Origin: a virus
Direction: 5' to 3' (one strand)
Virus record (IMG/VR): IMGVR_UViG_3300021478_000022
Coordinates: 1-64,000 of that record
Length of the DNA: 64,000 nucleotides
A model generated the notes under the pieces. The model saw only the letters and a list, made by a program, of their open reading frames with translations. It did no database searches and was not told where the DNA came from. Position numbers and translations under genes: made by a program. Shown piece after piece: positions 37,886-56,608 of this stretch (position 1 is the stretch's first letter; every line of letters starts with the position of its first letter).

Positions 37886-38494
37886 TTATTCCCGCTGCGT
37901 CCAGAACATCACCTCACGCATCAGACCGAGCCCATCCACCGTGGATTCCGCCTGAACCTCCCGGTCAACGATCCGGTGCCCCGCCGCTGCGACGGCGCGC
38001 TCCAGGTGATCCCCGGTGAGGTAGACGTGGTGGAACTCGGTGCCGTTGTCGTGGTCCCTCTCGGCGATCTGCATGTCGAAGCAGCCAAAGCGCCCGTGGG
38101 AGAGCAGCTTGGCAAGGATCTGGTCCCACTCGTGCAGCCCGAAGTTCTTGAGGAAAAAGAAGGCGCAGGAGAGGTCAGGTTCAAAGGCAAAGCAAGAGAT
38201 AAGGCGGATGTCATCGTGCCAGAACTGGTGGGCGCGTGTGTCGTTTCTCACCCTTGCCTTTCCCCAGAAATACTCGTTTTTCTCCACTCCCACATAGCGC
38301 ACGTGACATGGCATCCCCTTGGCCACCAGCCCCACCCCACACCCGAACTCCACGACACTCTCGACCTTCTCTCGCTCCATCCGGGGCAAGAGGAACCGCA
38401 GGTGCACCTTGGCGGACTGGTTGAGCAGCCACGTCACCTCCTCGGCCATGGCGCGCTCCTTCGTGTACCAACAGCTACTGTCCGGTAGAGGCAT
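37886..38494 (-). CDS. Class I SAM-dependent methyltransferase
   Basis: The 202-residue protein has a SAM-binding motif I VVEFGCGVGLV (about residues 45-55) and a Rossmann-like order of strands. It begins MPLPDSSCWYTKERAMAEEV at the ATG 38494; the longer upstream frame overlaps the next gene. It is the last enzyme of the sugar-modification cassette. The substrate is unknown. Confidence 0.8.
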   Translation of the reverse strand: MPLPDSSCWYTKERAMAEEVTWLLNQSAKVHLRFLLPRMEREKVESVVEFGCGVGLVAKGMPCHVRYVGVEKNEYFWGKARVRNDTRAHQFWHDDIRLISCFAFEPDLSCAFFFLKNFGLHEWDQILAKLLSHGRFGCFDMQIAERDHDNGTEFHHVYLTGDHLERAVAAAGHRIVDREVQAESTVDGLGLMREVMFWTQRE

Positions 38495-38669
38495 GTTGAA
38501 TCGTCCTCCAGCACAAATGAAGCGGCAGCATGGGAAGAAGGCAAACCCACACATCCCAGCGATGCCACCAGTTTTCGTCTGGCGAAAAGTGCGGTCTGCC
38601 CTCGATGGTCATTTTCCAGAAGACGCCGACCCAGCAATCTTGCGGCTTAAACTCAAGGCGAACCGTCAC
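38475..38669 (-). CDS. Small Trp-rich conserved-type protein
   Basis: The 64-residue protein has a strand and Trp-rich pattern (CWVGVFWK, then WDVWVCLLPMLPLHLCW) that I have seen in short phage proteins. The GTG at 38669 has AGGAGG upstream. It overlaps both neighbours by about 17-20 bases. The function is unknown. Confidence 0.65.
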   Translation of the reverse strand: MTVRLEFKPQDCWVGVFWKMTIEGRPHFSPDENWWHRWDVWVCLLPMLPLHLCWRTIQHASTGQ

Positions 38670-38832
38670 GGTGCCTCCTTGCCACTCGGCGTTTGACTTC
38701 TTCCATCGCCACATGCAAGTCTCGCCAGTCCTCTTCGGCCCAATCCTTGGCATCGCGTGGCAATCCCTCGTCCGTCCAGCGCTTGGCGTACTCACGCTTT
38801 GTTTTCTTTCGCTTCATTCCGTTCTCTGGCAT
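38653..38832 (-). CDS. Small protein with GLPRDAxDWxEEDW motif
   Basis: The 59-residue protein has DEGLPRDAKDWAEEDWRDLH and a basic helix. It is a paralogue of the 81-residue protein at 23652-23897 but lacks the C-terminal zinc knuckle. AGAGG lies about 5 bases before the ATG at 38832. The function is unknown. Confidence 0.65.
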   Translation of the reverse strand: MPENGMKRKKTKREYAKRWTDEGLPRDAKDWAEEDWRDLHVAMEEVKRRVARRHRDGSP

Positions 38833-38995
38833 GGGACCTCTCCTCGCAGGCTTCCACGTTCTCCACGGCCTCCCTGAGCAGGCACAGGCCACACCGCTCG
38901 TGAGGGGACCAGCACCAGCACCGCTGCTCAGCAAGGACGCGCTTGGCCGATTCGAGAAGCGCGGAGGCCATCAGGCGGTAGTTGGGACGGGACAT
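38792..38995 (-). CDS. Small cysteine-containing protein
   Basis: The 67-residue protein has a helical N-terminus (LMASALLESAKRVLAEQRC) and a CWCW...CGLC set. GGAGG precedes the ATG at 38995. It overlaps the deoxyribosyltransferase-like gene by 25 bases. The function is unknown. Confidence 0.62.
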   Translation of the reverse strand: MSRPNYRLMASALLESAKRVLAEQRCWCWSPHERCGLCLLREAVENVEACEERSHARERNEAKENKA

Positions 38996-39318
38996 GGTTG
39001 TTCCTCCAGCCACAGGATTTTCTTGCCTTTGTTCAGCGCGTGAGCTAGTTCGCTGCGTGTCGATTCGCCCACGTACCCGCCGACGTTCAGAATCAGCACT
39101 TCGTCGGCCAGGTCGATTTTGTCCTTGTGCAAGGCATCCAGAGCGATCTTTTGCTCAAGAGTGCAGCCGAATGCCTCGCCGTGGGTTTCTCCAGCAGCGT
39201 GCGGGTAAAAGCCAACGGACAGCACGATCTTGCCAGCCATCGTCTGGCGATAGTTCGCTTCTTGGAATGCCTTCCAGAAGCGAGTCGAGCCACAGAGACA
39301 GACAATCGTTCGTTTCAC
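38971..39318 (-). CDS. Nucleoside 2-deoxyribosyltransferase-like protein
   Basis: The 115-residue protein has the family start VCLCGSTRFW and the conserved KIDLADEVLILNVGGYVGES, followed by SELAHALNKGK. Such enzymes exchange or cleave the base of (deoxy)nucleosides. The GTG at 39318 overlaps the glycosyltransferase stop as GTGA. It could remodel nucleotides, or the fold may serve another sugar-nucleotide step. Confidence 0.78.
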   Translation of the reverse strand: MKRTIVCLCGSTRFWKAFQEANYRQTMAGKIVLSVGFYPHAAGETHGEAFGCTLEQKIALDALHKDKIDLADEVLILNVGGYVGESTRSELAHALNKGKKILWLEEQPCPVPTTA

Positions 39319-41141
39319 TTCAGCCACCTCTCAATCCAGGTAAATATTTCGCTCACATTCTCCCTGCCGTATACGCAGCCTTTGTAGCGGTCCTGATAGG
39401 CCGGATTCGTCCACGAGTCCTTCATCGCCTCGGAGAAGCTGACCAGCCGTTCCTTGTGGGCACTATTTCCAGCTGGCCTCCACCAGGTCACAACGGGGAC
39501 GCCCATGTAATGGGCCATGATTCCTAATCCGCATTGGTAACTCACCACCACCTTGGCCTTCTTCAGGAACGCCAGCGTCTCCCCTATCTCCATCTTTCCA
39601 ATCAAGTCCATCCAGACCATCCCCGCCTCCGCCACCCCCTGTTTGACCCACTTGTCCCAGAACGACCTGTCGTAAGGTGCCCCCACCACGGCGATGTTCA
39701 GCCCCCGCTCCGTGAGACGCTGGCCCAGCTCGACCCAGTGCTTGGGCTCCCACAGCCACCCCATGTTGTGCCCTTCCTCCGTGTGCCCCGACTCCGGGCC
39801 CAGGTAGAAGGCCGCGAACGGCGCCGCCGCATCCCCGACGTCCGAACCACGCTCGGTCCCGGTCCAGTCGAACTCGTCAATGACCGCCCAGTCGACGGGA
39901 TGCTCCGGCAACCACGTCTCCAGTCGCTCTCCACGCTCCAGGACCGTGTTAGGGATCAAGAAGTGATAGCCACCCCTCTCCCCGTCCGGGACGTAGCGGT
40001 AGCGGCCTTTCTCGTCGTTCTTCGGCCCCGTCTCCAGGATCGGCACGTCGAGCAGGTTAACGCTCTTGATGAACGGGAATCGGGACAGGAAGGGCACGCT
40101 CCTCCGGTCCACTTCCTTGTTGGCGTCCCCGTTGAGCAGGACGTTGATGGGTTTGTCCCCGGCGATGGACTTGATCTTCATGAGGGCCCACATGCAGTCA
40201 CCGATACCCTGCGGGAGAACGAAAGGAACCACGGAAGGACCCTCGGGGGGAGTGAAGTGCAAGACCTCGCACAGCCACCGTCTGACCTCACCCGGCAGCC
40301 CCCACTCCCCATCGTAGGTGCGGTACTGGTAGTGCCGGACGAAGTATTCCGCCACCCCACCATGATCGGCCGGGGAGAGGCTTCTCCAGTCCTTGGGGAT
40401 GAGATGGAGGGTGTTCTCGGCAGGGTCGTGAAACTGGATGGGGTGGTGCCCGACCCAGCAGATGAGGGAAGGGGTGTTGGTCGCCGACGCCACCTTGCCG
40501 GGGCCGGAGTCGATACCCACGAACGCCTCGGCGCAGTGGATGAGCGCCGCGATCATCTCCGCGTCCCCGGTCCCGAACCCGCCCCAGATGTCGTCACTGG
40601 CAGGTCGGGGGCAGAAGATGGTCTTCTGGTCGGGCAGGGGGGAGCGGTTGTCCCAGTCGAGGATGACGGGGATGCGACCGGAGGCGCGGATCAGGTCGGT
40701 TATTGATTGCATCTGGAAGTGGTGTAAGTTCTTACGCCAATTCGAGGTATTGCCCTCATAATGGCAAATCACGACGGCTGCCTTCTCTCCGTTGATCGAG
40801 GCGCCGATGGACTGGTAGTAGTCCATCGCCTTCTGACGCGCGACGGCACCAATGCGGATTTCGTAGCGCCCAAGGTCGAGGTCGTAGTTCAGGCCGAAGT
40901 TCTCCGCTAGGCAGTTGGTGATCTTGCTGTTGGGACGGTCGGTGTACTTGCAGTAGTTCTCGTAAAATCCGGCATGATGCACGGAGTCGTAATCCGACTC
41001 ATTTAGCTCCGGCTCCTGATCGTGCGAGACGCGATGGCACAGACCGATCAGCGCCGTGTGCTTGCCACGGCCGACCCTGATGGTGACTTGCCAGTCGGGA
41101 CGGTGACGGGCAAGGTGCTTGAGAACGACGCCCATTTGCAC
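39315..41141 (-). CDS. Large glycosyltransferase with family 9-like domains
   Basis: The 608-residue protein looks like two family-9-type (heptosyltransferase-like) halves. The first (residues 1-240) ends with a typical nucleotide-sugar site (AEAFVGIDSGPGKVASATNT). The second (about 310-608) has LPQGIGDCMWALMKI and a similar later site (KAKVVVSYQCGLGIMAHYMG). It may transfer heptose or a similar sugar. The usual N-terminus with the first GLGD motif is missing here. It lies just upstream in another frame (see 41142-41193), so this GTG start is probably not the original one. Confidence 0.75.
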   Translation of the reverse strand: MQMGVVLKHLARHRPDWQVTIRVGRGKHTALIGLCHRVSHDQEPELNESDYDSVHHAGFYENYCKYTDRPNSKITNCLAENFGLNYDLDLGRYEIRIGAVARQKAMDYYQSIGASINGEKAAVVICHYEGNTSNWRKNLHHFQMQSITDLIRASGRIPVILDWDNRSPLPDQKTIFCPRPASDDIWGGFGTGDAEMIAALIHCAEAFVGIDSGPGKVASATNTPSLICWVGHHPIQFHDPAENTLHLIPKDWRSLSPADHGGVAEYFVRHYQYRTYDGEWGLPGEVRRWLCEVLHFTPPEGPSVVPFVLPQGIGDCMWALMKIKSIAGDKPINVLLNGDANKEVDRRSVPFLSRFPFIKSVNLLDVPILETGPKNDEKGRYRYVPDGERGGYHFLIPNTVLERGERLETWLPEHPVDWAVIDEFDWTGTERGSDVGDAAAPFAAFYLGPESGHTEEGHNMGWLWEPKHWVELGQRLTERGLNIAVVGAPYDRSFWDKWVKQGVAEAGMVWMDLIGKMEIGETLAFLKKAKVVVSYQCGLGIMAHYMGVPVVTWWRPAGNSAHKERLVSFSEAMKDSWTNPAYQDRYKGCVYGRENVSEIFTWIERWLK

Positions 41142-41193
41142 AACGTCGCCTTCAGCCCAAGCCGTGGCTGAACCGGATTAGCAGTTTGACCAT
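41142..41193 (-). other. Out-of-frame N-terminus of the glycosyltransferase (frameshift)
   Basis: An ATG at 41193, after AAAGGAGGT, opens MVKLLIRFSHGLG and then meets TGA at 41152-41154. After one extra base the sequence continues EGDVVQMGVVLKHL in the frame of the large glycosyltransferase. Together these restore a normal family-9 N-terminus. Either a mutation, an assembly error or a +1 programmed frameshift at GGC-TGA explains it. Confidence 0.6.
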
Positions 41194-41201
41194 GACTTGG
41201 A

Positions 41202-41390: not shown

Positions 41391-41539
41391 TCCTGCACCT
41401 CCTGCTTGAGCGCCTCGATCACCTGATCGAACGCCTCTTGGAGTGGTTCGGCCTGTTCGGCATCGTCAAGGTGGATGCCCAGTTCCAAGGCCAGTCCGAC
41501 CTTCTCGATCAGGTTCTCCATCGCTTCGCTTGTGGTCAT
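41387..41539 (-). CDS. Very small helical protein
   Basis: The 50-residue protein (starting MTTSEAMENLIEKVGLALEL) is acidic and helical. Both ends overlap the neighbouring genes by four bases (ATGA), which supports it. The function is unknown. Confidence 0.62.
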   Translation of the reverse strand: MTTSEAMENLIEKVGLALELGIHLDDAEQAEPLQEAFDQVIEALKQEVQE

Positions 41540-42696
41540 CGCTTCACCTCCTCCAGAATCGGCAGTGGAAACGTCAGCGTCCCGCCCCCGTCCAAGAACG
41601 CCTTCTCGCGCTGGATCAACTCATCGCGGAACGCCCACGGACCTACAAGGTACACGTCGGGCTTCGCTGCCCGCGAGGACTCCTCCGAGACAATCGGGAT
41701 GCGTGACCCCGGTGTCATGTGCATGATCTTCCGTGGGTCACGGTCGGATGCTGCCATGATGTGGTCTTGGTCGATTCCGCAATACTGGAGCACCGTGTTC
41801 ATCTTCGTGGAGGCGCCCAGAAGGTGCACGATCTTGTTCTTGTGCCAGCACTCGTCCAGATAGGCCACCAGCCGCTCCCGGCACGTCCTGACCACCTCCG
41901 GGAAGGCCAGAGGGTACGGGATGGGGTACGGCGTGGGCTGCAAAACCTTGGGCGGCTCCAGCCCAGCGTACAACCGGATCGACCCACCGTTGCACTGGTT
42001 GTAGCTGACCTTGTGCGTGTGCATCCCGGCCTTGCGTACCACGTAATCCAAGGTGTACGCCGAGAAGTAGGACAGGTGCTCATGGCAAACCGAGTCCCAC
42101 GCGCCGTTGTACAGGGCGCGCAGGTCGGCAACCTCGACGCACCACAGACCACCCGGCGCCAGGTTGTCGCTGACGGCCTTGGCAAAGCCCACGGGGTCGG
42201 GGGTGTCGTAGAAGCAGGCGATGGTGAAGATAAGGTCGAACTTCTCACGAGCAAGAAGATGAGTCGGGTAAAAGGCTTTGATGCGGACATGGGTCACCGG
42301 CAAAAGCACATCGCTAGGATCAACCCCTACTAAGTTCTGGTCGTAGGTCTGCGGTCCCCAGGAAAAGAAATTGAGCAGCGTGCCATCGTTGCAGCCGATG
42401 TCCAGGACTCGTTTCGGCCATTCTCCCAGAAGAGTCCTTGCTTCTCTTGCGATTCCTTCCAAGTGTTCTCGCATCGTCTGCGTCACCCCGCTCCTGTACC
42501 AGTAGTTCCGGTACATCAACTCCGGGTCCACCGCATCGCGGAGCTGCACCAGTCCGCACCCCAGATGGCACCGCGACAGCACCAGCGGGAACCGGGGTGG
42601 GTCGGGTTCGCCGATCTTGGGAAACTGACCGCCGAGGCACTGCTCCCCGAAGTCGAGGATGGTTTCCAGGGGTCCACCGCAGACGCGACAGGTCAT
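41536..42696 (-). CDS. Sugar C-methyltransferase
   Basis: The 386-residue enzyme matches the NDP-sugar C-methyltransferase family (TylC3/NovU type). An N-terminal zinc domain (CRVCG, CHLGCG) leads to a SAM domain with VLDIGCNDGTLL (about residues 97-108). CHEHLSYFS follows (about 204), and a C-terminal domain starts near 250 (HLLGASTKMNTV). These enzymes add a methyl group to a ring carbon of a deoxysugar. The gene lies among glycosyltransferases, so a branched-chain sugar is likely. Confidence 0.85.
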   Translation of the reverse strand: MTCRVCGGPLETILDFGEQCLGGQFPKIGEPDPPRFPLVLSRCHLGCGLVQLRDAVDPELMYRNYWYRSGVTQTMREHLEGIAREARTLLGEWPKRVLDIGCNDGTLLNFFSWGPQTYDQNLVGVDPSDVLLPVTHVRIKAFYPTHLLAREKFDLIFTIACFYDTPDPVGFAKAVSDNLAPGGLWCVEVADLRALYNGAWDSVCHEHLSYFSAYTLDYVVRKAGMHTHKVSYNQCNGGSIRLYAGLEPPKVLQPTPYPIPYPLAFPEVVRTCRERLVAYLDECWHKNKIVHLLGASTKMNTVLQYCGIDQDHIMAASDRDPRKIMHMTPGSRIPIVSEESSRAAKPDVYLVGPWAFRDELIQREKAFLDGGGTLTFPLPILEEVKR

Positions 42697-43616
42697 AGAT
42701 TCGCCCTCCAGTACCGCTCCGTCAGTTCCGTCAGAACTCCCACGTACTGCTCAGGCCCCCAGACCGTGACGGGGGGCAGCAAGTCATCGATCTTCGCAGG
42801 GATCGCGTCCAGCGAACTGTAGACGTGTATCCGGTCCTCACGCATGGTCCCCTCGTCGTCCACCACCATCACCGGCCTTGCGAACGCCGTGGCGAATCGT
42901 GGCGATGTCGGGGACCCACCCTTGCCGCCTTTCGAGGGAGGAAGGACGAACAGGAAGTGGCTGATGTCCTCGACCAAGGGTGCCAGCCCTTCGACCCAAG
43001 CCGACCAGGAGTGCATGACGACCTTGCCGCCCAGAGTTTCTATTTGCTTGACGTATTCTCGGTGCAGTTTAATCCGGTCGGGACACCACATGACTGATAC
43101 GTCAGGGCAGAAGGCCGTGAATGGCACATGTCTGAACAAAGCCCACTTCGCCATCTCCAGCGTGTACTTCTTCGGCTCGCAGTACCCGAACGTCCCGATG
43201 TGCATGGGCCGCTGCTTGGGAACCACGCAGAACGGCAGCACCGGCTGGCGCAGCAGGACTGGCCGGTAGGCATCCAGCTTCTCCTCGGCCTGCTGGGTCC
43301 AGACGAAGGAGGGATAGTCCCCCGGAGTCGGCACACCGGGGTTGTCGTTGTTGTGGACGACGCCGAACTTGATCCGCCGCTCTCGCAGAAAGGAGATGTC
43401 GGCGTCGATCCTGTCGCGCGGGTAGTTCTTGCCCTCGGTGATGAGGAACACATAGTCCGCCTCGGACTCCCCCTTCTCGCCAAGGAACACCTGTGGCCAA
43501 CGACTGAGGCTGACGCGCCAGGCTTTGCAGTGCCGGGCGATGGTGAGCGCCCAGTTGTCCAGGGCCTCGAAGGGGGAACTGCCGGGGAACAGGAAGTGGA
43601 CACGGTTGTGCTTCAT
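42693..43616 (-). CDS. Putative glycosyltransferase
   Basis: The 307-residue protein has a GT-B-like layout with a C-terminal segment (HFLFVLPPSKGGKGGSPTSP, then ATAFARPVMVVDDEG) like a nucleotide-sugar site. It starts at an ATG that overlaps the previous stop as ATGA. The longer frame upstream is a shadow. The family is not certain; context strongly suggests a sugar-handling enzyme. Confidence 0.6.
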   Translation of the reverse strand: MKHNRVHFLFPGSSPFEALDNWALTIARHCKAWRVSLSRWPQVFLGEKGESEADYVFLITEGKNYPRDRIDADISFLRERRIKFGVVHNNDNPGVPTPGDYPSFVWTQQAEEKLDAYRPVLLRQPVLPFCVVPKQRPMHIGTFGYCEPKKYTLEMAKWALFRHVPFTAFCPDVSVMWCPDRIKLHREYVKQIETLGGKVVMHSWSAWVEGLAPLVEDISHFLFVLPPSKGGKGGSPTSPRFATAFARPVMVVDDEGTMREDRIHVYSSLDAIPAKIDDLLPPVTVWGPEQYVGVLTELTERYWRANL

Positions 43617-44350
43617 CGGATGAACTCCTCCCACATCGGTCGCCACAGTTGCGGTTGCTCCAGCCACCCCCAGTACACCCCAGGCTTGGAGTCGATGCGT
43701 CCCGTCAGGGGAGGGTCGGACATCTCCTCCATCTTGCGGAAGAACGCAGGCCACTTGGGGTGACGGAGGCACTCATCTAGTGCAAATGTATGCGGATGCC
43801 GACCGAACTTCTTCTGAAGCACTACTAGGCAATCTGCGCGGTCGTAAGACTCATGCGCGTTCCGCTGATTGCACTCCCCGTAGACGTACTCACGGTCCTT
43901 GCCCCACTGCCCGAACTCCTCCGGGTGCTCATCCGTGAGAATGTCCTCGATGAAGTAGTAGCCCCCCACCTTCAGGTTCGGCCAGAGGATGTCCCGGCTG
44001 ATGCGCTGCCACTCCGCCCGGTGCCCGCAGTCGTCGATGATGACGTCGAAGTATTCGGGAGGGAACAGCAGCGCGATGCCGGGGTCCTGCTGGAAGCGCT
44101 GGTAGATGGTCAGGCGCGGATCAGTGACCTCGCGGCAGTCGTGCAGGTCGATGGCGTGGACTTCCCCCAGCGGGAACATCTTGAGCCAGAACTTCAGGGA
44201 GTTGCCGTGGTCGATGCCCAGCTCCAGAATCTTTGCCGGGAAGGCGGTCATGGGACCGAGGAATCGCTCGTATACGGGCATATAGGTATGTTGGCCCTTG
44301 TCTGTGCCACATTCCCTCGCAACTCTTTCCCATTCGCAAGAGAACGTCAT
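43613..44350 (-). CDS. SAM methyltransferase, macrocin O-methyltransferase-like
   Basis: The 245-residue enzyme has GTDKGQHTYMPVYERFL, then ILELGIDHGNSLKFWLKMFP and FDVIIDDCGH. This pattern is typical of MycE/TylF-like and rhamnosyl O-methyltransferases that methylate sugar hydroxyls. The start overlaps the HNH gene stop as ATGA. It probably methylates a glycan made by the neighbouring enzymes. Confidence 0.82.
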   Translation of the reverse strand: MTFSCEWERVARECGTDKGQHTYMPVYERFLGPMTAFPAKILELGIDHGNSLKFWLKMFPLGEVHAIDLHDCREVTDPRLTIYQRFQQDPGIALLFPPEYFDVIIDDCGHRAEWQRISRDILWPNLKVGGYYFIEDILTDEHPEEFGQWGKDREYVYGECNQRNAHESYDRADCLVVLQKKFGRHPHTFALDECLRHPKWPAFFRKMEEMSDPPLTGRIDSKPGVYWGWLEQPQLWRPMWEEFIR

Positions 44351-44922
44351 TGCACGCTCCTCCAGTTGTTCCCGTTCCTTATCTCTTTGATGGCACCATA
44401 AGTTACACCAAACTTGTCAGCGATGGCTTGCAAGGCACCCTTGGGCAATCGCTTTTGACGGCCAACCATTCCTTGAGCTATGACGCGACGTATTTCAACA
44501 ACAGCATCACGGCTTAGCTTTGCCATGCCATTGCGTTCTCCGGCATTGTCGGTGCCGTGGAACGCGCGGTCGTCCTTGTTTTGCTTGGACGTTCCCCATT
44601 GCAGATTGTCGAGTCGATTGTTCGCTGGATTCCGGTCGGGAAAGTGCCGACATTCCATGCCTTCGGGGCAAGGGCCGACGAAAGTTTCCAGAACTAGCCG
44701 ATGGATGTAAGTCGCGATACTTTTGCCCTTTTTGCAAAGGCTCACGAATACGTGGCCGTACTGCTTCAATGCTTGCAATTTCATTATCCGTTCTGGGATG
44801 CTGTAAGAATGCGTCCTGAAGCCACCTCGCGGAACGGAGCGGGCCAAAGATTTCACCCGTCCAAGATTCGACACTTGGTACAGCCCTTCGTAGCCCTTGA
44901 CGTCGCGCCATTCTTCGTTCAT
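44347..44922 (-). CDS. NUMOD4/HNH homing endonuclease
   Basis: The 191-residue protein has an N-terminal NUMOD4 motif (WRDVKGYEGLYQVSNLGRVK) and an HNH core (IHRLVLETFVG, then CRHFPDRNPANNRLDNLQWG). A C-terminal helix-turn-helix follows (LQAIADKFGVTYGAIKEIRN). It is a free-standing homing endonuclease set between a glycosyltransferase and a methyltransferase. Unusually, it has exact ATGA overlaps at both ends. Its insertion did not break either neighbour. Confidence 0.88.
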   Translation of the reverse strand: MNEEWRDVKGYEGLYQVSNLGRVKSLARSVPRGGFRTHSYSIPERIMKLQALKQYGHVFVSLCKKGKSIATYIHRLVLETFVGPCPEGMECRHFPDRNPANNRLDNLQWGTSKQNKDDRAFHGTDNAGERNGMAKLSRDAVVEIRRVIAQGMVGRQKRLPKGALQAIADKFGVTYGAIKEIRNGNNWRSVQ

Positions 44923-45968
44923 AGCATCCCCATCACTTTCAGGAGTTTCGTTGCCCTCGCCGCAGTGGTGTGATTCTTCCTCGCATACTCCAAGAGCGCC
45001 TGCCTGCGTGGAGTCTGATCGTTCGACAGAGCATGGTCGATACAGTCGGCCAGTCCGTCCAGGCCGCACTCGAAGCACGTCTCCGGTGGGAACCACGGCT
45101 CCCTCCGGTAGGCCGGGTAGCAGAGCAGGATCGGGATGGCACCAGCTGCCGCCGCCTCGTAGCACCTGAGCGATTCGCAGTCGTCCGCCCCCGGAGGGAC
45201 CAGGGCCAGCTTGGACTGCTTCATGATCTCCCAGTAGGGCTCCCAGCCTCCCAGCGTGCCCGTGCAGGCGATGGAGTGGTGCATGGTGTGCGTGGAGAAC
45301 AGTTCCCGGAGCATCCGCCAGCGTACGGGCCGGTCGGGATGGCACGACCGTGGATTGCCTGCGAAGAACACGTCGAACGGTCGGTCGCCTTCCCACCATT
45401 TGTCGTCTTTTGTGGGCCAATAATTTCCAAGTACGGCCTGTTCGACTATCTCGCGTGCTTGTTCTCGCGCCGATGGTTTCGGAGTTTCTTGCGGGAACAT
45501 CCGCTCGGGCATGGCGAACGACAGGTGATGCGGACGCATGGGGTAGGGGATGGCGTCGTTGATCTCCCGGCGGAAGTAGGCGTCCACGGGGATCTGCGGT
45601 GGCTCGTGGTGCCATGCCGCATCCCATCCCTCGACGTAGGCGACTTTGCCGTTGGGAGCGAGCAGTTCCTTGATGACCCATTTGGCCCAATCCCAGTCAT
45701 GTTCACGCACAAAGCAGGCGTTCACCACGATCAGATCGAACCACGGGCACCAGTCCTGAAGCACCTCTCCTTCCCTCGACCCACTGATGGCCCGCACCTC
45801 GGGATGCGGTCCCGTGCCGTACATCGCGTCCAGGCTGCTCTTGTGCAGCCAGGGCGAGTTCACGGCGTCCACGACATTGGGCTCGCCTAGAACCTCCTGT
45901 AGGCCGTCCCAGAGGCAGGCAGAGATGTAGTCGGGGTCGTTCTTGCATGTGACGAACAGGCACTTCAT
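44919..45968 (-). CDS. Glycosyltransferase, paralogue of 47505-48461
   Basis: The 349-residue protein has ACLWDGLQEVLG at its start and the C-terminal site PGADDCESLRCYEAAAAGAI, which resembles CgeB or exostosin-like glycosyltransferases. It shares both ends with the protein at 47505-48461, including the final TTAARAT-LLKVMGM, so one arose by duplication. The ATG overlaps the previous stop as ATGA. The acceptor is unknown. Confidence 0.75.
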   Translation of the reverse strand: MKCLFVTCKNDPDYISACLWDGLQEVLGEPNVVDAVNSPWLHKSSLDAMYGTGPHPEVRAISGSREGEVLQDWCPWFDLIVVNACFVREHDWDWAKWVIKELLAPNGKVAYVEGWDAAWHHEPPQIPVDAYFRREINDAIPYPMRPHHLSFAMPERMFPQETPKPSAREQAREIVEQAVLGNYWPTKDDKWWEGDRPFDVFFAGNPRSCHPDRPVRWRMLRELFSTHTMHHSIACTGTLGGWEPYWEIMKQSKLALVPPGADDCESLRCYEAAAAGAIPILLCYPAYRREPWFPPETCFECGLDGLADCIDHALSNDQTPRRQALLEYARKNHTTAARATKLLKVMGML

Positions 45969-46651: not shown

Positions 46652-47508
46652 TTGGCCTCTTCGATGTAGTTCAGCAATTCCTGATATTCCGCAGCGCGTG
46701 GATAGAAGTTCTTCTCCGATTTCGTGCAATGGCGCAGATCGACGTCTCCCTGATAAACGCCGATGCGAATAACGTGCGGAAACGCATCTGCTACCACCAG
46801 AGGCGCCGAGATGTTCCCGATGTAATACTTGCACTTGGAGATGACTCCAGCCATCTCCAGAAACCCATCCCGCGCACGGTCGATGCTGCCAAGGTCGAGC
46901 GCGCACGTCCTCCCCGGAGGGCAGACCTCGACTACCGGGATGGGGCAATGCTTCACGAAGTCCCTGAACACGTCCCACCACCCCGTTCTCGTGGCCTCGG
47001 GCTTGTACTTGCCCTCCAGCGCCACAAAGGGGCCTTCAGGGACCGGCTCTTTAGGGCAGTCTGATGGCAGGTCGAAGTAATGGCTCTGGCGCCCGACGCC
47101 GGCCAGGTCGCAGAAGTAATCCAGGAGAGTACCGTTGAGTTCCTTCGTTTCGCTGAAGCCAAGATTGTAGACCATCTCGTAGCCGTGCTCTGGCCTGAAC
47201 GCATTGTGAATGATGTGCGACTTGCCGCGCAGCGTTCTGACCTGGACGCCATCGACGACCTCGACGGTCGAGCAGTCCCCATCCATGTACCATGACTTCT
47301 CCACTATGGCATGGCGAACGAACGATTGCGCTTCCAGCAAATCTGCGGCGTTGCCTCCCCGGTGCGAAATCCAGAAGTCCGCGCGGCAGCCATGTCGCGC
47401 CGCGAGAGCGCGAGCGGCAGGGACCGACCACAGCATGTCACCGTGGAGTTCAGGGCTACAGATGGCGATGATGCGTTCGCTCATTTTCAAACCCGGCCCG
47501 TTAATCAT
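46648..47508 (-). CDS. Glycosyltransferase family 9-like protein
   Basis: The 286-residue protein begins IIAICSPELHGDMLWSVPAA, where HGDML replaces the usual LGD motif. It ends with a site-like KYYIGNISAPLVVADAF. This resembles a shortened heptosyltransferase. The degenerate motifs may mean altered donor use or loss of activity. Both ends overlap neighbours by four bases. Confidence 0.62.
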   Translation of the reverse strand: MINGPGLKMSERIIAICSPELHGDMLWSVPAARALAARHGCRADFWISHRGGNAADLLEAQSFVRHAIVEKSWYMDGDCSTVEVVDGVQVRTLRGKSHIIHNAFRPEHGYEMVYNLGFSETKELNGTLLDYFCDLAGVGRQSHYFDLPSDCPKEPVPEGPFVALEGKYKPEATRTGWWDVFRDFVKHCPIPVVEVCPPGRTCALDLGSIDRARDGFLEMAGVISKCKYYIGNISAPLVVADAFPHVIRIGVYQGDVDLRHCTKSEKNFYPRAAEYQELLNYIEEAK

Positions 47509-48461
47509 GCTTCCATTCCCATGACCTTCAAAAGCTGCTTGGCCCTTGCCGCCGTCGTGTGATATTCCCGCGCATATTCCTGAAGGGCGCGACTCTTGGC
47601 GGTTGCGTCATGCGCCAAGGCTTCATCAATGTGCTCGGGCAGCGTATCCGCAGTGCAGTTGACAATCAGTTCCGCCGGGAACCAGGGATCGCGCACATGA
47701 TCGGGATAGCCCACGAAAATGGGAATGGTCCCGCACGCCGCCGCCTCGAAGGTGCGCAGCGAATCTGCCAAGTCTGCCGCTGAAGGACAGAGCGCGAACT
47801 TGGCACGCCGCAGCATAGCCAAATATTCGTCTTGGCCCAGTCCCAAGCCGCATGTGGCAATGACCGACCGATGCTTCTTCGCAGTCCGAAAGACATTCCT
47901 TAGCATCGGCCAGCGGACTTCGTGTCCCGGTAAACACGTCGCCGGATCGCCAACGAAGAACAAGTCGATGGGGCGAGACGACGATTCTGCAAACCACCGG
48001 GACGGCGCTGCGAAATTCAAATGGTGCGGCTTCATGGGATAGGTCACTTTGCCAGAAATCTCTTTGCGGAAATAGGCGTCGACGTGAATCTTGGGACGGG
48101 TGATCTGCCATGCCGCGTCCCAGCCTTCCACGAAAGCCACCTTGCCGCCCTTGCTCAAATTCCGCTGCCATTCCTTCGCCCACGTCCACGACCAGTCCAC
48201 GTTCTTTTTTCGATTGAAGCAAGCATTGAAGATTATGAGGTCATATTTGCCAGTCGGCCATCTTATACCATTCCTTGTGCCACTGATCGCCGCCACGGCC
48301 GCTTCTCGTACTCCATCGGGCTCTATATCGGACTTGTGCAGCCACGAGGCATTGATCGCATCAATGATGTTCTCCTCGCCTAGAACCTCCTGCAAACCAT
48401 CCCAAAGACAGGCGCTCAAATAATCGCACTCCCCTGACGAGGTTACGAAGGATACCCGCAT
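47505..48461 (-). CDS. Glycosyltransferase, paralogue of 44919-45968
   Basis: The 318-residue protein shares ACLWDGLQEVLGEENIIDAI with the start of the other paralogue, and LKVMGM with its end. Its C-terminal site reads ALCPSAADLADSLRTFEAAA. GAGGG lies before the ATG at 48461, inside a short copy of the end of the methyltransferase at 48997. The acceptor is unknown. Confidence 0.75.
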   Translation of the reverse strand: MRVSFVTSSGECDYLSACLWDGLQEVLGEENIIDAINASWLHKSDIEPDGVREAAVAAISGTRNGIRWPTGKYDLIIFNACFNRKKNVDWSWTWAKEWQRNLSKGGKVAFVEGWDAAWQITRPKIHVDAYFRKEISGKVTYPMKPHHLNFAAPSRWFAESSSRPIDLFFVGDPATCLPGHEVRWPMLRNVFRTAKKHRSVIATCGLGLGQDEYLAMLRRAKFALCPSAADLADSLRTFEAAACGTIPIFVGYPDHVRDPWFPAELIVNCTADTLPEHIDEALAHDATAKSRALQEYAREYHTTAARAKQLLKVMGMEA

Positions 48462-48462
48462 C

Positions 48463-48484
48463 AATCCCTCGGAAAGCAGTAGAT
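48463..48484. repeat. 22-base direct repeat, copy 1
   Basis: This segment matches 48999-49020 at 21 of 22 bases in the same orientation. The other copy encodes the last residues (IYCFPRD and stop) of the methyltransferase at 48997-49575. Copy 1 is a remnant of the same end, placed just before the glycosyltransferase gene. Confidence 0.75.
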
Positions 48485-48486
48485 AC

Positions 48487-48996
48487 TCATTTCCACACCG
48501 CCCAGCACATGTCCCTCAGCTTGAGGAGGTCCTTGCCCTTGGCAAATTCATCCACGGCATGGTTCACACCAAAACCAGGGTCGTCGCCGTAGTCATGCCC
48601 GCAGAGAAGACCGCCCGGCCTGATCTTGGGCCAGTAAAGGTCGATGTCCTTCTTGATGTAGGCGTAATCGTGGTTACCGTCGATCCAGACGAAATCTAGG
48701 TCGTTCGGCAGAAACCGAGGAGCCTCCGCACTGGGCATACGCAAGATCGCGAAGTGCCTGCCGTCATCGTAAGGATGGAGACGCCCACGGCAAATCCTGA
48801 GATTGTGCTCCTCGGCAGCAGCCTCATTTGCCCCGACTATCCCGTAGCCCTCGTAGGTGATCCACGGATCGACCAGAAAGAGGAAGCGCACTCCTTTTTC
48901 CAGAAGCGCCAGCGAGCTGATGCCCCACTGGACGCCGATCTCCACACCCACCCAGCCGGGCTTGATGAATGGCAAAAGGTTGTCAACGGATGCCAT
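48487..48996 (-). CDS. SAM-dependent methyltransferase (Methyltransf_24-like)
   Basis: The 169-residue protein has VGVEIGVQWGISSLALLE as motif I, then DLDFVWIDGNHDY and PGGLLCGHDYGDDPG. This pattern fits the Methyltransf_24 family, often linked to glycan or cell-surface modification. The gene lies exactly between two copies of a 22-base repeat, so it seems to have been inserted or duplicated into the cassette. Confidence 0.8.
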   Translation of the reverse strand: MASVDNLLPFIKPGWVGVEIGVQWGISSLALLEKGVRFLFLVDPWITYEGYGIVGANEAAAEEHNLRICRGRLHPYDDGRHFAILRMPSAEAPRFLPNDLDFVWIDGNHDYAYIKKDIDLYWPKIRPGGLLCGHDYGDDPGFGVNHAVDEFAKGKDLLKLRDMCWAVWK

Positions 48997-49575
48997 TTAA
49001 TCCCTCGGGAAGCAGTAGATGCACTGCTCCTTGATGAACAGGTCGTACTTGTTATCCACAGCCCCCACCACGTCGTAAATCTGCTGGAAGGTCGGGTTTT
49101 GCTTGCGGTCCATCCCCTGCCCGTGCGCCCCTCTGTCCCACCACACGTCGGAGCAGAACGTCGAGGCATCGTCGATCAGGATGAACGGCCGCGACTTCCA
49201 GGGTACGGCAAGGATGAGGCGCAGTTCCTCCAAGAGAACACACTGCCCGTGGCGTGGGTCGAAGGAGGTGGGCTTGGCCCCGTCGTAGTGGGCGTCGAGC
49301 CAGAAGACGGTTTTCTTGTGCGGCGTGAGGATTTCCGGCAGCACGTCGAGGCTGGAGCCGTGGTGGATGCTCAGGCGGGTGGTGTCGAACCGCTTGCAGG
49401 CTTTGTCCACCATCTCCGCATCTACCTCGATGCCGTGCAACTCCATGAATCGCGGCGCCGCGAACGCCAGCGCCACGGCCATCGACGTGCCTTCGGACAG
49501 GCCGGTCTCGATGTACACGTCCCCCCAGATATGGGGGAGGTAGGTGGCTCGGGGAGTCAGGGGTACGGTGCCCAT
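48997..49575 (-). CDS. SAM-dependent methyltransferase
   Basis: The 192-residue protein has GDVYIETGLSEGTSMAVALA as motif I, then FWLDAHYDGAKPT and a late FILIDDAS strand. It resembles O-methyltransferases of the Methyltransf_24 or FkbM-like group. The ATG at 49575 makes a TAATG overlap with the previous stop. Its 3' end is part of the 22-base repeat. Confidence 0.75.
   Translation of the reverse strand: MGTVPLTPRATYLPHIWGDVYIETGLSEGTSMAVALAFAAPRFMELHGIEVDAEMVDKACKRFDTTRLSIHHGSSLDVLPEILTPHKKTVFWLDAHYDGAKPTSFDPRHGQCVLLEELRLILAVPWKSRPFILIDDASTFCSDVWWDRGAHGQGMDRKQNPTFQQIYDVVGAVDNKYDLFIKEQCIYCFPRD
48999..49020. repeat. 22-base direct repeat, copy 2
   Basis: This copy covers the stop and last codons of the methyltransferase at 48997-49575. 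It differs from copy 1 at one base. The two copies are 536 bases apart. Confidence 0.75.
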
Positions 49576-49799
49576 TATTGAGATACCTCTTTGAGCAGAC
49601 GATCGCGCAACTGACAAGCCTTCTCAAAGGTCGCCGTCTCGTACCAGCGCCGGTCGCCACCGAGCAGGTGAACTATGACTCGTGGAGCTATTGAAGCCCG
49701 GCAGGACGCTATTTCACCATCTCTGCCTTCCGCCGCCTCGATGGCTAGGATGTAGTCGCTTCGGAATTGGTCGCCGCTGGGCATTGCAATGAATTTCAT
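49575..49799 (-). CDS. Small protein of unknown function
   Basis: The 74-residue protein has strand and helix segments (DYILAIEAAEGRDGEIASCR, then FEKACQLRDRLLKEV). Its ATG overlaps the radical SAM stop as ATGA. No family is recognised. Confidence 0.65.
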   Translation of the reverse strand: MKFIAMPSGDQFRSDYILAIEAAEGRDGEIASCRASIAPRVIVHLLGGDRRWYETATFEKACQLRDRLLKEVSQ

Positions 49800-50713
49800 G
49801 GGAAGTTGATGTCCTCCAATTTTCTGAGTCTGTCCACGAGATTATTGATTTCGTTCAACTTGCACGCCACCTGACAATTCTCGTGCACCGGCACTGACTG
49901 CGGAGCCCGGTCGAGGATATCCTTGAGGGAGTCCTTGTAGATGTTGCCCAGCACGAACTCCGGTCCATGCTTCCGCATGTACGCGCACACGTTCACGCTG
50001 CCGTCCTCGAAAATGAAGGGGACCATGTGGAACCCTTCGCACCGCGCGTACCCGTGCTTCTTCCGGGCCTCCTCGAACTTGTACCCCGTCACCTGCATCA
50101 GCGGGTGCGTGAAGTCCGGTGGCTTGATGTCCACCGTTTCCCCGTGGAACTTCAGAGCGGGCCTGCACTGGACGTAATCGGCCCCCACCTCCTCCGCGAG
50201 CCTGAGCGTCTCCAGCAGGTAGGCCCCATCTTCCTTGGCCCCCCGGTAGTTGAACGCGAACCCCAGCGTCTTGCAGGGCCGCAGGGCGCGGATGCACTCC
50301 GGTTTGTAGGGTCGGTCGGTCATGGTGACCCTGATCCACTGGAGCAGGGAGGGGTCGAAGCGTGGCATGGCCAAGGCGTTGGTGAACATGCCTTGATCGA
50401 GACCATGCACCTTCGCACTTTCGACCAGCGTTCCGATGTCGGGGTGAAGGGAAGGGTCGCCGCCTCCCGTCCACGTCACGGCTTTGACTCCCAAGGGTTC
50501 GCACTCTTCCAAGAGAACGCACGCCCGGAACGTCTCTAAAAACACCTTCCTAAATCCCCCAAGGTCTCCATTTGAATAAAAACATTGTGGGCAGTGCGCC
50601 TGGCAAACCCCGCTAGGGCTAATCTCTATCCCCACCGGGTAGACGCGCCGTCCCGCCATGTGCTCAGCGAGTTGGGGATGCAGCGCCAGTTTGTCTTGGG
50701 GGGAAAAACGCAT
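49796..50713 (-). CDS. Radical SAM protein with SPASM-like end
   Basis: The 305-residue enzyme binds a 4Fe-4S cluster through CQAHCPQC (Cys37, 41, 44) and SAM through AVTWTGGGDPSLH. Later cysteines (CEGF, VNVCAYMRKHG, NCQVACKL) suggest a second, SPASM-like cluster. Related enzymes carry out sugar rearrangement, methylation or peptide modification. AGGA lies about 8 bases before the ATG. Here it sits inside the glycan cassette, so a sugar or glycoprotein substrate is plausible. Confidence 0.85.
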   Translation of the reverse strand: MRFSPQDKLALHPQLAEHMAGRRVYPVGIEISPSGVCQAHCPQCFYSNGDLGGFRKVFLETFRACVLLEECEPLGVKAVTWTGGGDPSLHPDIGTLVESAKVHGLDQGMFTNALAMPRFDPSLLQWIRVTMTDRPYKPECIRALRPCKTLGFAFNYRGAKEDGAYLLETLRLAEEVGADYVQCRPALKFHGETVDIKPPDFTHPLMQVTGYKFEEARKKHGYARCEGFHMVPFIFEDGSVNVCAYMRKHGPEFVLGNIYKDSLKDILDRAPQSVPVHENCQVACKLNEINNLVDRLRKLEDINFP

Positions 50714-50741
50714 CAGGTAATCCTAATCGACAAGCTGGACG

Positions 50742-51059: not shown

Positions 51060-51083
51060 TTTTTGGCTCCGTAAATCAACTGT

Positions 51084-51419: not shown

Positions 51420-51472
51420 GGCTTTCCCCTTTACTGGATGTCACGATTGCCAATGTGGGCAGTAGGACGTTG

Positions 51473-51667: not shown

Positions 51668-51691
51668 GTAATCCTCCATTGGAGTTGGGCG

Positions 51692-51889: not shown

Positions 51890-51913
51890 CGCAATCCCCG
51901 TAAAACAGCTTTG

Positions 51914-53056
51914 TCAGTTGCCTTGCGACCACCGATCCCACCCCGCGTCCGCGTACAACCGCACCGCGCTCAACTGCCGACCAATATCCTCCAACTCCCC
52001 TTCCCTGAAGCATCGCCTTGCCAGTGCAGCCATGTCCTTGTGATCCACCCCATTGCACCCGAAGTCCCTTTCGAGTATCCCGTCCGGTCCGTCCGGCGGT
52101 TCATGGTGCCGGGGCTGTTTCTGCGAGTCCTTGATCCTGAACGCCAACCCGCTCATGTGCAGCCAGGGCGGACATTCGCAGTTGATGCACAGGTAGCCGT
52201 TCTGCGCCATCCTGACCCCCAGGTGCCCCTCGTAGAACGTGCACCCGTCCCGCCAGCGCCCCACCGCACGCCACGCATCCATGTTGATGAGCGCCCACGC
52301 GGACGGACCCATTGCCCACGATGCGCCGCGCGTCCGGGGCCAGCCCCCCATGGCCTGCCAGCCCCATCCGAACTGCATCTCGGACCACACCATCGCCCCG
52401 ACCTCATGCCGCAGGATGGGGTCGCGCCATGTGCGGCGGATGATCTCGGGCCAGGTGTCCCCAAGGCCGGGTTCTTTGCACGTCTCCAGCGCCTTGTCGT
52501 GCATCCGCTGCCAACACCAGTAGCCGTCGTTCCAGTTGCCATCGTGATGCTCCGACCCGTAGAAACAGTCGCGCTGGGTGTCCCCGTTCTGGCCGAAGAA
52601 CCCCTCCAGCCCGAGTTCGCACGGCATCACCTTGGCGCAGGCCAGATGCCACGCCTCGAAACTGGTGGTCATGCCAATGGCCCCGACCTTGCGCCCTGAC
52701 CACGTGCGCTCACCGATCTGGTCGAGGGCATCCATCGCGGTTTCAAGCCACCCCATGCTGGGCCTGACGGCATCTTCAATGAGGAACGCCCATGGGGTCG
52801 TCACCAGACTCATCAGGTAGTTGAGGTTGTAGCTTATGCCGTAGGTCGGGCCGGGGTTATCAACCCATTCAACGTCATTGGGCTCGCAGACGCTAATCTG
52901 CCGCAGTTGGTCGTTGGGGTCGCTGCTGCCGTCGTCCGATACGATCTGCCGGTAGGGCAGCTTCGTGAACTTGCGGAGTTCCCGGAGGGAGACGCCAAGG
53001 TGCTTGTAGCTGTCGCCCAGCGTGGCGGTGACGACGGTGATGCGGTCGAGTGTCAT
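51914..53056 (-). CDS. Glycosyltransferase family 2-like protein
   Basis: The 380-residue protein starts with a GT-A nucleotide-sugar site (VVTATLGDSY, KLPYRQIVSDDGSSDPND) and has FLIEDAV in place of the DxD motif. The middle carries many Trp and Gly residues (QFGWGWQAMGGWPR). It probably adds a sugar within the cassette. The ATG is followed by a normal N-terminus; the ribosome site is weak. Confidence 0.75.
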   Translation of the reverse strand: MTLDRITVVTATLGDSYKHLGVSLRELRKFTKLPYRQIVSDDGSSDPNDQLRQISVCEPNDVEWVDNPGPTYGISYNLNYLMSLVTTPWAFLIEDAVRPSMGWLETAMDALDQIGERTWSGRKVGAIGMTTSFEAWHLACAKVMPCELGLEGFFGQNGDTQRDCFYGSEHHDGNWNDGYWCWQRMHDKALETCKEPGLGDTWPEIIRRTWRDPILRHEVGAMVWSEMQFGWGWQAMGGWPRTRGASWAMGPSAWALINMDAWRAVGRWRDGCTFYEGHLGVRMAQNGYLCINCECPPWLHMSGLAFRIKDSQKQPRHHEPPDGPDGILERDFGCNGVDHKDMAALARRCFREGELEDIGRQLSAVRLYADAGWDRWSQGN

Positions 53057-53071
53057 ATTTGGCCTAATCCT

Positions 53072-53437
53072 CTAATTCAAAGGCGATGTCATGGGACCGT
53101 ACCACTTGGTCTTTCCGTCAAGGTTCGCTTTGTCGACTGTTATCTCGTCGCCATTGCCAAAACGGACCACGCCGTTAGCAACGCAGACTATGGTGGAACA
53201 TGGGTCGAACGGGCGCTTTATCCAGTACCAGCCACTTGCGAACCGTTTCCCATCGGCGGACGCTTGTCCCTTTAGCTTCTCGACCTCTGCCTTCAGTTCG
53301 CTGTTCGTCCTGTAAAGCCTTGTCAACTCAAGCTGCGATACCGCATAATTTCGGCACATAATCTCAATCGACTTGGCCAGCGTAAGCGGCTCGATGGTTT
53401 CCGGTTCGTCCATTGCTTGTCGGTCGGGTTGCATCAT
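53072..53437 (-). CDS. Protein with coiled-coil N-terminus, unknown function
   Basis: The 121-residue protein has a helical part (QLELTRLYRTNSELKAEVEK) and a strand-rich C-terminal half (GYWI-like WYWIKRPFD, then IVCVANGVVRFGNGDEITVD). Its ATG overlaps the stop of the small zinc-ribbon gene as ATGA. The function is unknown. Confidence 0.65.
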   Translation of the reverse strand: MMQPDRQAMDEPETIEPLTLAKSIEIMCRNYAVSQLELTRLYRTNSELKAEVEKLKGQASADGKRFASGWYWIKRPFDPCSTIVCVANGVVRFGNGDEITVDKANLDGKTKWYGPMTSPLN

Positions 53438-53577
53438 ATCCCAGACTTCCTCTTCTTGTCCCAGTAGGGACTACGGCACTTGGCGCAACGTGTCGGTCTG
53501 CCATTTCTGCGAGGTGTCCACGAGCACCCGCAGCGCTGACATTTCACCTTCGGCAGCTTTACGCTTGTGGTGTCCAT
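53434..53577 (-). CDS. Small zinc-ribbon protein
   Basis: The 47-residue protein has CQRCGCSWTPRRNGRPTRCA and KCRSPYWDKKR, a complete four-cysteine ribbon of a type common in phages and archaea. The ATG at 53577 has no strong ribosome site, but the stop is coupled to the next start. It may bind DNA. Confidence 0.65.
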   Translation of the reverse strand: MDTTSVKLPKVKCQRCGCSWTPRRNGRPTRCAKCRSPYWDKKRKSGI

Positions 53578-53614
53578 ATCTGGATACCACTATACGCCAC
53601 GTCCTATCCCTTCG

Positions 53615-54880
53615 TCAAGCCTGATACCGCAAAATCGCTGACGCCACTTCTTCCGACGGGATCATGGCCATACATTTTGGCGCAGGCGGCTCGGTCAGCA
53701 CTGGGTTCATGCACAGGTCACCGTCCTTCTCCGACCCGTCGTTCAGCGGCACCGTGCGCGACTTCCAGCAGGCTGTGGTGCGGCAGCAGTCCAGCGCCCC
53801 CACGGTCGAGAACAGCGTCTGGAGCGGGTAGGTCGTCCAGTGCCGTGGTTCCCTTGCCCCTCCGATGGTCACGGCAGGTTTCTCCAGAGCTGCCGCGAGG
53901 TGCTGGAGCATCGTCACCCCCGACAAGACCCCCTGTGAGTGGTAAACGAGCCGCACGAGCTGTCTGAGGCTGGTCTTGCCCAAGAAGTCGATGACCCCGC
54001 GCAGAGGCTTGTGGATGTGCTCGTGCGACCCAACCTGCACGAACAGCACCTTCCCTTGCAAGCGATCCACCACCTCCTGATAGAAGGGGTACTGCTTGGC
54101 AGTGTAGTCGGACTTCACTCCGGCGTTGACGAGCCAGAATTTCTGGTCGCGCTTGGTCGCCTCGGTCACCTGATTCATCCACGACTTCTCCTCCGGCGAG
54201 AGCCACAGCATCGGCCGATTCGTGTGGCACTTCAGCGGCACCTGTAGCGCCTCCCCCAAGAACTCGGTGTACGCCTCAAGGAAGTGGATGGCGCGCTGGT
54301 TCGACTCGTGGATCGCCGGGTAGTGTACGACCACCTCCTCGGCGCCCATCGCCTTGGCCGTCTCCACCGTAACCACGTCGGGGTTGTGCTCCCAGAACTC
54401 CGGGGCGCTCGTCTCCACAGCCGTGATGAACCTTCCGGGGTGCTGCTTGTGGAGGCTGTAGACCCCGGCCGTCATGCACAAGACGTCGCCGGGTGAGAGC
54501 ATGTGACGGAGGAGGAGGACTCGTGGTGCTTGGGTCATGACTTTCGGCCTGTAAATGCACTGGGAACAGTCGGTCAGGGTCACATGGTCGTTGCGGTTGG
54601 GCTGGCGGCGCCCCGGACACTTGCACTCGAACAGGTCGAGGAACTTCGACCCGCCGCACTGGACGCACTCGCGCTTCTGGATCTCGCCCTTCTCATCGCG
54701 GACGCGCTTCCAGAGGTAGGGGCAGCGTTCCACCTTGACACCGTGGACGCCGCTGCCGCCCCAGAGGCGGTTGTAGTCGGGATTGGTGTGGTACAGGTAG
54801 CAAAGGCGGCAAAAATCCGTGCTGTACGGCTGGCCGTCTGGCGGTATCCGGTCGCAGGCGCAGGGTCTCACAGCGTCCAT
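53615..54880 (-). CDS. Glycosyltransferase family 9-like protein with cysteine-rich N-terminus
   Basis: The 421-residue protein has an unusual cysteine-rich N-terminal domain (about residues 5-115, with CQ-like pairs CVQCGG, CKCPGR, CSQC). A family-9-type glycosyltransferase follows (LLLRHMLSPGDVLCMTAGVY, then VYHSQGVLSGVTMLQHLAAA). The PGD motif replaces LGD. It is the first sugar enzyme after the virion genes. It probably transfers heptose or a related sugar; the N-terminal domain may bind zinc or the acceptor. Confidence 0.75.
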   Translation of the reverse strand: MDAVRPCACDRIPPDGQPYSTDFCRLCYLYHTNPDYNRLWGGSGVHGVKVERCPYLWKRVRDEKGEIQKRECVQCGGSKFLDLFECKCPGRRQPNRNDHVTLTDCSQCIYRPKVMTQAPRVLLLRHMLSPGDVLCMTAGVYSLHKQHPGRFITAVETSAPEFWEHNPDVVTVETAKAMGAEEVVVHYPAIHESNQRAIHFLEAYTEFLGEALQVPLKCHTNRPMLWLSPEEKSWMNQVTEATKRDQKFWLVNAGVKSDYTAKQYPFYQEVVDRLQGKVLFVQVGSHEHIHKPLRGVIDFLGKTSLRQLVRLVYHSQGVLSGVTMLQHLAAALEKPAVTIGGAREPRHWTTYPLQTLFSTVGALDCCRTTACWKSRTVPLNDGSEKDGDLCMNPVLTEPPAPKCMAMIPSEEVASAILRYQA

Positions 54881-55557: not shown

Positions 55558-55566
55558 GGGGAACAC

Positions 55567-56607: not shown

Positions 56608-56608
56608 G

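Follow-up and report, generated by a model that had tools for sequence, protein, structure and literature searches.

A phage glycan cassette with an HldE-like gene and a putative glycosyltransferase paired with Ser-rich structural-block proteins

Among the bacterial autotransporter heptosyltransferases (BAHTs) TibC and AAH, TibC heptosylates Ser and not Thr, its base (Asp-110) comes after an N-terminal domain, and it binds iron through Cys-339, Cys-342, Cys-358, and Cys-370 (PMC4358343). In phages, glycosylation of capsid and tail-tube proteins of the virion has been demonstrated experimentally for the mycobacteriophages Che8, Corndog, and Myrna (Freeman et al. 2023, as cited in PMC12363180 and PMC12619734). 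Here we analyze a locus within bases 1–64000 of the 78,687-base IMG/VR virus record IMGVR_UViG_3300021478_000022 (this whole stretch is called the window). The window has a GC content of ∼60%, nearly all of its genes are on the minus strand, and terminase, major head protein, decoration protein, portal, and a Mu F-like head protein were recognized. An earlier note on this DNA had described a glycan cassette linked to an HldE-like gene; this cassette is real, subject to several corrections described below (Table 1).

On balance, we lean toward the interpretation that the locus encodes a phage system for protein O-glycosylation, in which an ADP-heptose-type donor would be used by a family 9 glycosyltransferase (GT9), designated g88, to place methylated sugars on Ser-rich proteins of the structural block. 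The presence of the cassette next to genes for Ser-rich structural-block proteins suggests decoration of the phage's own particle with methylated sugars, and we infer that the enzymes are catalytically active and that the Ser-rich proteins are in the virion. In the proposed pathway, the HldE-like enzyme, together with the host pathway, would boost the supply of an ADP-sugar, most likely ADP-heptose, by drawing on host heptose phosphate, and g88 would put the first sugar on serines of the mucin-like proteins encoded alongside it (55567–57562). The tandem GT9 and the GT-B-like pair, possibly with the GT2-like protein, would extend the chain, whereas the C-methyltransferase, the macrocin-type O-methyltransferase and other methyltransferases, and perhaps the radical S-adenosylmethionine (SAM) enzyme, would tailor its sugars. 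The sugar on the Ser-rich proteins would probably be heptose-based and methylated; as to its benefit, our guess is coat shielding or altered adhesion.

The features of g88 itself are consistent with this role. The PGD motif and four C-terminal Cys residues (365, 371, 390, and 403) are invariant in 18 diverse g88 proteins, with residue 366 nearly invariant, and the putative catalytic Asp (residue 132) follows a Cys-rich N-terminal region. The Cys4 spacing of g88 (C-x4-C-x18-C-x12-C) is similar to that of the iron finger of TibC (C-x2-C-x15-C-x11-C; PMC4358343). When an AlphaFold model of g88 (mean predicted local distance difference test score 83, core >90) was compared with the PDB using Foldseek, it matched WaaF (1.3e-11) and TibC (5e-11, many chains); the best 30 PDB matches were all WaaF, TibC, WaaC, or one Veillonella GT9, followed by a gap from 2e-8 to 7e-7. 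In addition, a g88 profile (A5) matches WaaF at 1.5e-6. From the model, g88 is predicted to have the GT-B fold of ADP-heptose transferases (WaaF/TibC/WaaC-like).

The relatives used for comparison are records found by scans, with capsid and other structural genes in common at roughly 40–65% identity. Records G001–G003 and G005–G009 were retrieved via the tandem GT9 and thus contain it by construction; another gene led to G004 and the capsid gene to G117 and G118, and G003 is a phage unrelated to the family that was retrieved only through its GT9s. The presence of HldE-like sequence is independent of the retrieval route in all relatives.

The proteins encoded upstream of g88 have a ∼95-residue N-terminal domain ending GLPLY..CC, followed by Ser-rich tracts that vary from short linkers to mucin-like stretches of up to 350 residues. 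These tracts contain 679 Ser and 56 Thr (∼12:1), compared with a proteome ratio of 0.93. Ser-rich open reading frames (ORFs) were located by six-frame scans, with a criterion of ≥50% Ser over 40 residues, ≤4 kb upstream of g88 on the same strand; this threshold was set after the pattern had been seen, so the P values given here are descriptive. Such an ORF is present upstream of g88 in seven of eight whole records (random same-strand placement, P = 9e-9), and g88 and a Ser-rich ORF are likewise paired in the unrelated phage G003. A Ser-rich ORF is also present at 5 of 11 g88 loci placed outside the family by lower identity only, and at none of the 11 loci around HldE-like genes that served as controls (p = 0.018).

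The link between the HldE-like gene and the cassette is another part of the argument. The HldE-like protein, which the earlier note had correctly recognized, contains a PfkB kinase and a cytidylyltransferase-like domain on a single chain and retains the kinase GGAAN and GAGD motifs and the nucleotidyltransferase (NT) HAGH motif. Its nearest solved structures by PDB sequence search are HldC (2.7e-37) and HldA (6e-20), and its predicted fold matches HldA in Foldseek (5.6e-14). HldE-like sequence (both halves or one) is found alongside the tandem GT9 in all 10 relatives read, on the same strand and at a distance of 0–4.5 kb in nine of them and 7.8 kb in G004; in the window phage the two genes are 17 kb apart, which makes it the outlier. 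In a placement test, 8 of 11 cases were at ≤4.5 kb (P = 2.5e-4), a threshold that was picked post hoc and that G005 missed by 25 bases. Three domains are combined in single proteins of G009 (L050:14802-16703) and G117 (L055:4815-6683): a GT9-like domain (by eye), an HldE nucleotidyltransferase that matches TIGR02199 (2e-45 and 3.5e-46, respectively), and a TylF-like methyltransferase (by eye); G009 also encodes a kinase alone, and a protein at locus L029 combines g88, GT9, and FkbM methyltransferase. These fusions are independent support for the HldE/GT9 link, which was the weakest point of the earlier case and is the one best supported by comparison.

Several observations weigh against the O-glycosylation interpretation. 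The HldE-like protein scores under every HldE equivalog cut-off (130 versus 521 bits), and it is therefore named HldE-like and not filed as HldE; in addition, the NT HxGH motif is changed to LGxHH in G007 and G117. Because of these scores and the altered motif, its specificity may differ. Detection was limited to the kinase half in G004 and G006 and to the NT half in G118, and GmhA, GmhB, and HldD genes were not recognized in the phage. The low scores and altered motif, together with the carbamoyltransferase that adjoins the HldE-like genes of cyanophages, would fit a system with the same acceptors and a different ADP- or other nucleoside diphosphate-sugar donor, the HldE-like protein being a diverged kinase/nucleotidyltransferase for another sugar phosphate. 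We consider this alternative doubtful, given that, for both halves, the closest solved structures belong to heptose enzymes and that the partner g88 is predicted to have an ADP-heptose-transferase fold. Other contrary points concern g88 and its partners. The TM-scores of the g88 model are moderate (∼0.5 by query; ∼0.48 by query for TibC), and TibC is absent from the g88 profile matches to E = 10, the likeness being by fold only; because TibC was not found by sequence, we propose that g88 may work like TibC and do not claim membership. g88 was not detected in G002, G006, G007, or G008 (some of which are fragments), G009 carries g88 without a Ser-rich neighbor, the Ser-rich tracts could be plain linkers, and a frame disruption affects the first GLGD catalytic loop of the tandem GT9 in the window.

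Alternatively, recombination could have brought unrelated cargo genes together as a loose island, without a joint pathway and with the Ser-rich tracts as simple linkers. Such an island would account for the damaged GT9, for a homing endonuclease within the cassette (probably a passenger), and for the several methyltransferases that are present in only 0–2 relatives. This explanation is quite improbable in view of the conserved core (HldE-like gene, tandem GT9, and often g88), the multidomain fusions, and the g88/Ser-rich adjacency in unrelated phages. The cassette core was found in all relatives reaching the region, the kind of co-conservation that the earlier note had proposed to look for, and none of the three refuting outcomes named in that note came about. 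The methylation set differs between relatives, as expected if the glycan is diversifying under selection.

The identity of the host bears on another explanation. A GT9 profile scan of 84,980 bacterial and archaeal genomes gave only two matches, both in metagenome-assembled genomes (MAGs) of Planctomycetota (Gemmataceae and Planctomycetia). The Gemmataceae MAG bins an 18-kb contig with structural genes of the window's phage family, and more distant relatives are present on 135- and 216-kb Gemmatales contigs. From these results, the host is likely a planctomycete, with binning error possible. The distant structural-gene relatives on Gemmatales contigs (G110 and G105) had no cassette match. In G110 (C57, ∼37.9–64.2 kb; L064–L065), the distant relatives on the 135-kb contig are collinear with the phage structural genes, a possible prophage without the cassette.

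GT9 enzymes classically build the lipopolysaccharide (LPS) core, and the likely hosts carry HldE: in the order to which they belong, 82 of 102 genomes have an HldE NT above its cut-off. The presence of HldE in the likely hosts counts in favor of the O-glycosylation interpretation as well; both facts would fit a cassette that alters polysaccharides of the host surface (LPS or capsule), perhaps as a block to superinfection, as the earlier note had also suggested. We regard this as unlikely: strong transmembrane segments are absent from all cassette proteins, no gene for polysaccharide export or for a polymerase was recognized, and the cassette adjoins structural genes, with a Ser-rich structural-block protein as the consistent neighbor of g88. 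Phage glycosyltransferases are also known to modify DNA (PMC12619734), and a C5 cytosine methylase is present, so that hypermodification of phage DNA bases with sugars was weighed as well. This is very improbable, as the recognized GT9s resemble heptosyltransferases and not DNA glucosyltransferases, and a hydroxymethylase, a base-J-type hydroxylase, and other hypermodification genes were absent from the family scans, which small or diverged genes could escape.

The individual enzymes of the cassette held up unevenly. Of three proposed family-9-like enzymes, the tandem GT9 and g88 match PF01075, whereas the protein at 46648–47484 did not reach its cut-off and gave empty Pfam and PDB profile searches. 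The called tandem GT9 lacks the first GLGD loop because ∼7 extra bases put that loop in another frame (Table 1); assembly error, decay, and recoding are possible causes. Apart from this loop, catalytic residues are mostly kept, including GIGD in domain 2 of the tandem GT9. The tandem GT9 had no match among 50,697 annotated phage records. The proposed pair of paralogous glycosyltransferases, the sugar C-methyltransferase, the macrocin-type O-methyltransferase, and the radical SAM protein were all recovered by domain searches, as were three of the other methyltransferases (one of them more weakly), leaving the one at 48997–49575 without a match. The GT2-like call fell below the PF00535 cut-off with an empty PDB profile search, and searches with the putative GT-B enzyme (42693–43616) gave nothing in Pfam, PHROG, NCBIfam, or the PDB. 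The earlier note had missed the homing endonuclease, the Ser-rich proteins (54868–57562), the amine-oxidase-like protein, and the disrupted start of the tandem GT9.

Table 1. Features of the cassette, the HldE-like gene, and adjoining structural-block genes (window positions).
Feature	Position	Strand	Evidence and distribution
HldE-like bifunctional PfkB kinase and nucleotidyltransferase	21094–22461	−	NF008454 9e-38, TIGR02199 3e-29, TIGR02198 5e-21
Small ORF	22603–22800	−	Accompanies HldE-like/methyltransferase genes in relatives: fused to methyltransferase frame in G001, near HldE in G002
SAM methyltransferase	37886–38494	−	PF13489 8e-4; PDB methyltransferases 3.5e-6 with family profile; in 5/10 relatives
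Tandem GT9-GT9 (heptosyltransferase-like), cassette core	39315–41135	−	PF01075 1.6e-14, 54.3 bits versus cut-off 22
Out-of-frame N-terminal piece of tandem GT9, MVKLLIRFSHGLG-stop, ending ...GGC TGA	41152–41193	−	∼7 extra bases versus relatives
Sugar C-methyltransferase	41536–42696	−	PF08421, PF13489, PF08484 1.6e-30
Putative GT-B of the earlier note	42693–43616	−	Homolog in G004 only
Methyltransf_24-like methyltransferase, weaker	43613–44350	−	4e-4; PHROG methyltransferase 2.6e-21
NUMOD4-HNH homing endonuclease inside cassette	44347–44922	−	PF07463 1e-15, PF13392 9e-12
GT-B/exostosin-like glycosyltransferase, paralog of 47505–48464	44919–45968	−	Glyco_trans_1_2 6e-6
Methyltransf_11-type methyltransferase	45965–46651	−	5e-6
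GT9-like by motif only (HGDMLWSVPAARAL)	46648–47484	−	GD-xL-xxP-like N-terminal motif, by eye
GT-B-like glycosyltransferase, paralog of 44919–45968	47505–48464	−	PF13524 (Glyco_trans_1_2) 4e-10
Macrocin-type O-methyltransferase-like (Methyltransf_24)	48487–48996	−	1.3e-13
Methyltransferase-like by eye	48997–49575	−	No match in domain-model searches
Radical SAM/SPASM enzyme	49796–50713	−	Nearest PDB: nucleotide-sugar radical SAM enzymes DesII (E 0.002), BlsE (E 0.016), weak
GT2-like, weak	51914–53056	−	PF00535 0.0011, under cut-off; homologs in 3/10 relatives
GT9 g88	53615–54880	−	PF01075 4.9e-10, 39.6 bits versus cut-off 22; invariant PGD and C-terminal Cys4 motif
Ser/Cys-rich protein directly upstream of g88	54868–55524	−
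Mucin-like Ser-rich protein, g93-type N-terminal domain, candidate acceptor	55567–56607	−
g93 structural-module protein, short poly-Ser linker	56609–57562	−	Conserved in 9/10 relatives
Flavin amine-oxidase-like protein, structural block	58817–60748	−	PF01593 1.5e-23; in 5/10 relatives

Some neighboring proteins have features of their own. Poly-Ser runs also occur in a 1264-residue (L002:8630-12424) and a 175-residue (L002:12421-12948) structural-module protein at 72630–76948 of the record, the latter conserved with its poly-Ser in G001 and G002. The amine-oxidase-like protein has an insertion not found in relatives (residues ∼377–508), with a peptidase-like HE-containing stretch by eye, and a single-protein viral scan with this gene returned one record only. 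Between the first methyltransferase and the tandem GT9, a small protein (38971–39318) resembles a nucleoside deoxyribosyltransferase-like phage protein by eye and has no Pfam match.

Outside the window, an in-frame TGA was found at a Cys position of g88 in three relatives (L073:7986-9290 in G004, L075:7827-9110 in G005, and L077:7989-9190), where the window and other g88 genes have Cys. Published limits for the bacterial selenocysteine insertion sequence (bSECIS) are a G in the first two loop positions and a spacing of 16–37 nucleotides (PMC13188914). The hairpins ACUGGA-GGUCU-UCCAGU in L073, 20 nucleotides past the TGA (z = −3.4), and CUGGA-CGUGU-UCCAG in L075 and L077, 23 nucleotides past it, are within these limits; the minimum-energy fold of L077 differs. 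In the order of the likely host, 85 of 102 genomes have a selB match above its cut-off, compared with 2 of 14 controls. ARAGORN did not report a tRNA-Sec on the phage loci of the relatives, and an Rfam search of one TGA locus gave no match. From sequence features, the TGA-bearing g88 is a candidate phage-encoded selenoprotein glycosyltransferase. General TGA recoding in the relatives was rejected, as outside g88 the in-frame stops with matched flanks are isolated and mostly at gaps. A further in-frame TGA is present in G118 (∼58535, L060) within a Walker-A-like stretch (AIFADCGL-stop-LGKT).

If the O-glycosylation interpretation is true, virion glycosylation would reach beyond mycobacteriophages into a large family of uncultured phages that probably infect planctomycetes, and its new elements would be an ADP-heptose-type enzyme class, a donor-making gene of the phage's own, and a recognizable acceptor. 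The g88/Ser-rich gene pair could serve as a genomic signature for spotting protein glycosylation in other phages. As a bolder and more tentative proposal, such proteins may be “phage mucins”: virion proteins rich in Ser and heavily glycosylated, the methylated heptose being attached by a TibC-like enzyme that a phage ADP-heptose synthase supplies, with an enzyme-acceptor pair that is mobile among unrelated phages and a selenocysteine form in some relatives.

Compared with known systems, g88 shares with TibC and AAH the ADP-heptose-transferase GT-B fold predicted for it, an N-terminal extension before the catalytic Asp, a C-terminal Cys4 motif, and a Ser-laden partner protein in which Ser predominates over Thr (PMC4358343). 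It differs from them in having no detectable TibC sequence match, in its Cys-rich N-terminal part, in its partners (phage Ser/Pro-rich proteins instead of β-helix autotransporters), and in the linked methyltransferases and HldE-like gene of the phage. In the sources cited above for mycobacteriophages, phage-encoded glycosyltransferases are likewise thought to act on structural proteins; the window phage differs by its GT9-type enzymes, ADP-heptose-type donor gene, and mucin-like acceptors, all of which are predicted. The HldE-like protein resembles cellular HldE, HldA, and HldC in domain order, kinase and NT catalytic motifs, and nearest solved structures, whereas the phage proteins score below the equivalog cut-offs, the other pathway enzymes were not recognized in the phage, and in some phage relatives one half is retained or the NT is part of a fusion with GT9-like and methyltransferase domains. 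Cyanophages (S-SSM7, S-CAM1, and others) also carry an HldE-type kinase/nucleotidyltransferase, but at ∼26–33% identity, matched as two pieces annotated as separate genes, and not linked to a tandem GT9 of the window type. Finally, the capsid glycan gene sets of chloroviruses are similar in combining virus-encoded transferases and methyltransferases to give methylated capsid glycans, although these viruses have eukaryotic algal hosts and unrelated enzymes and acceptors.

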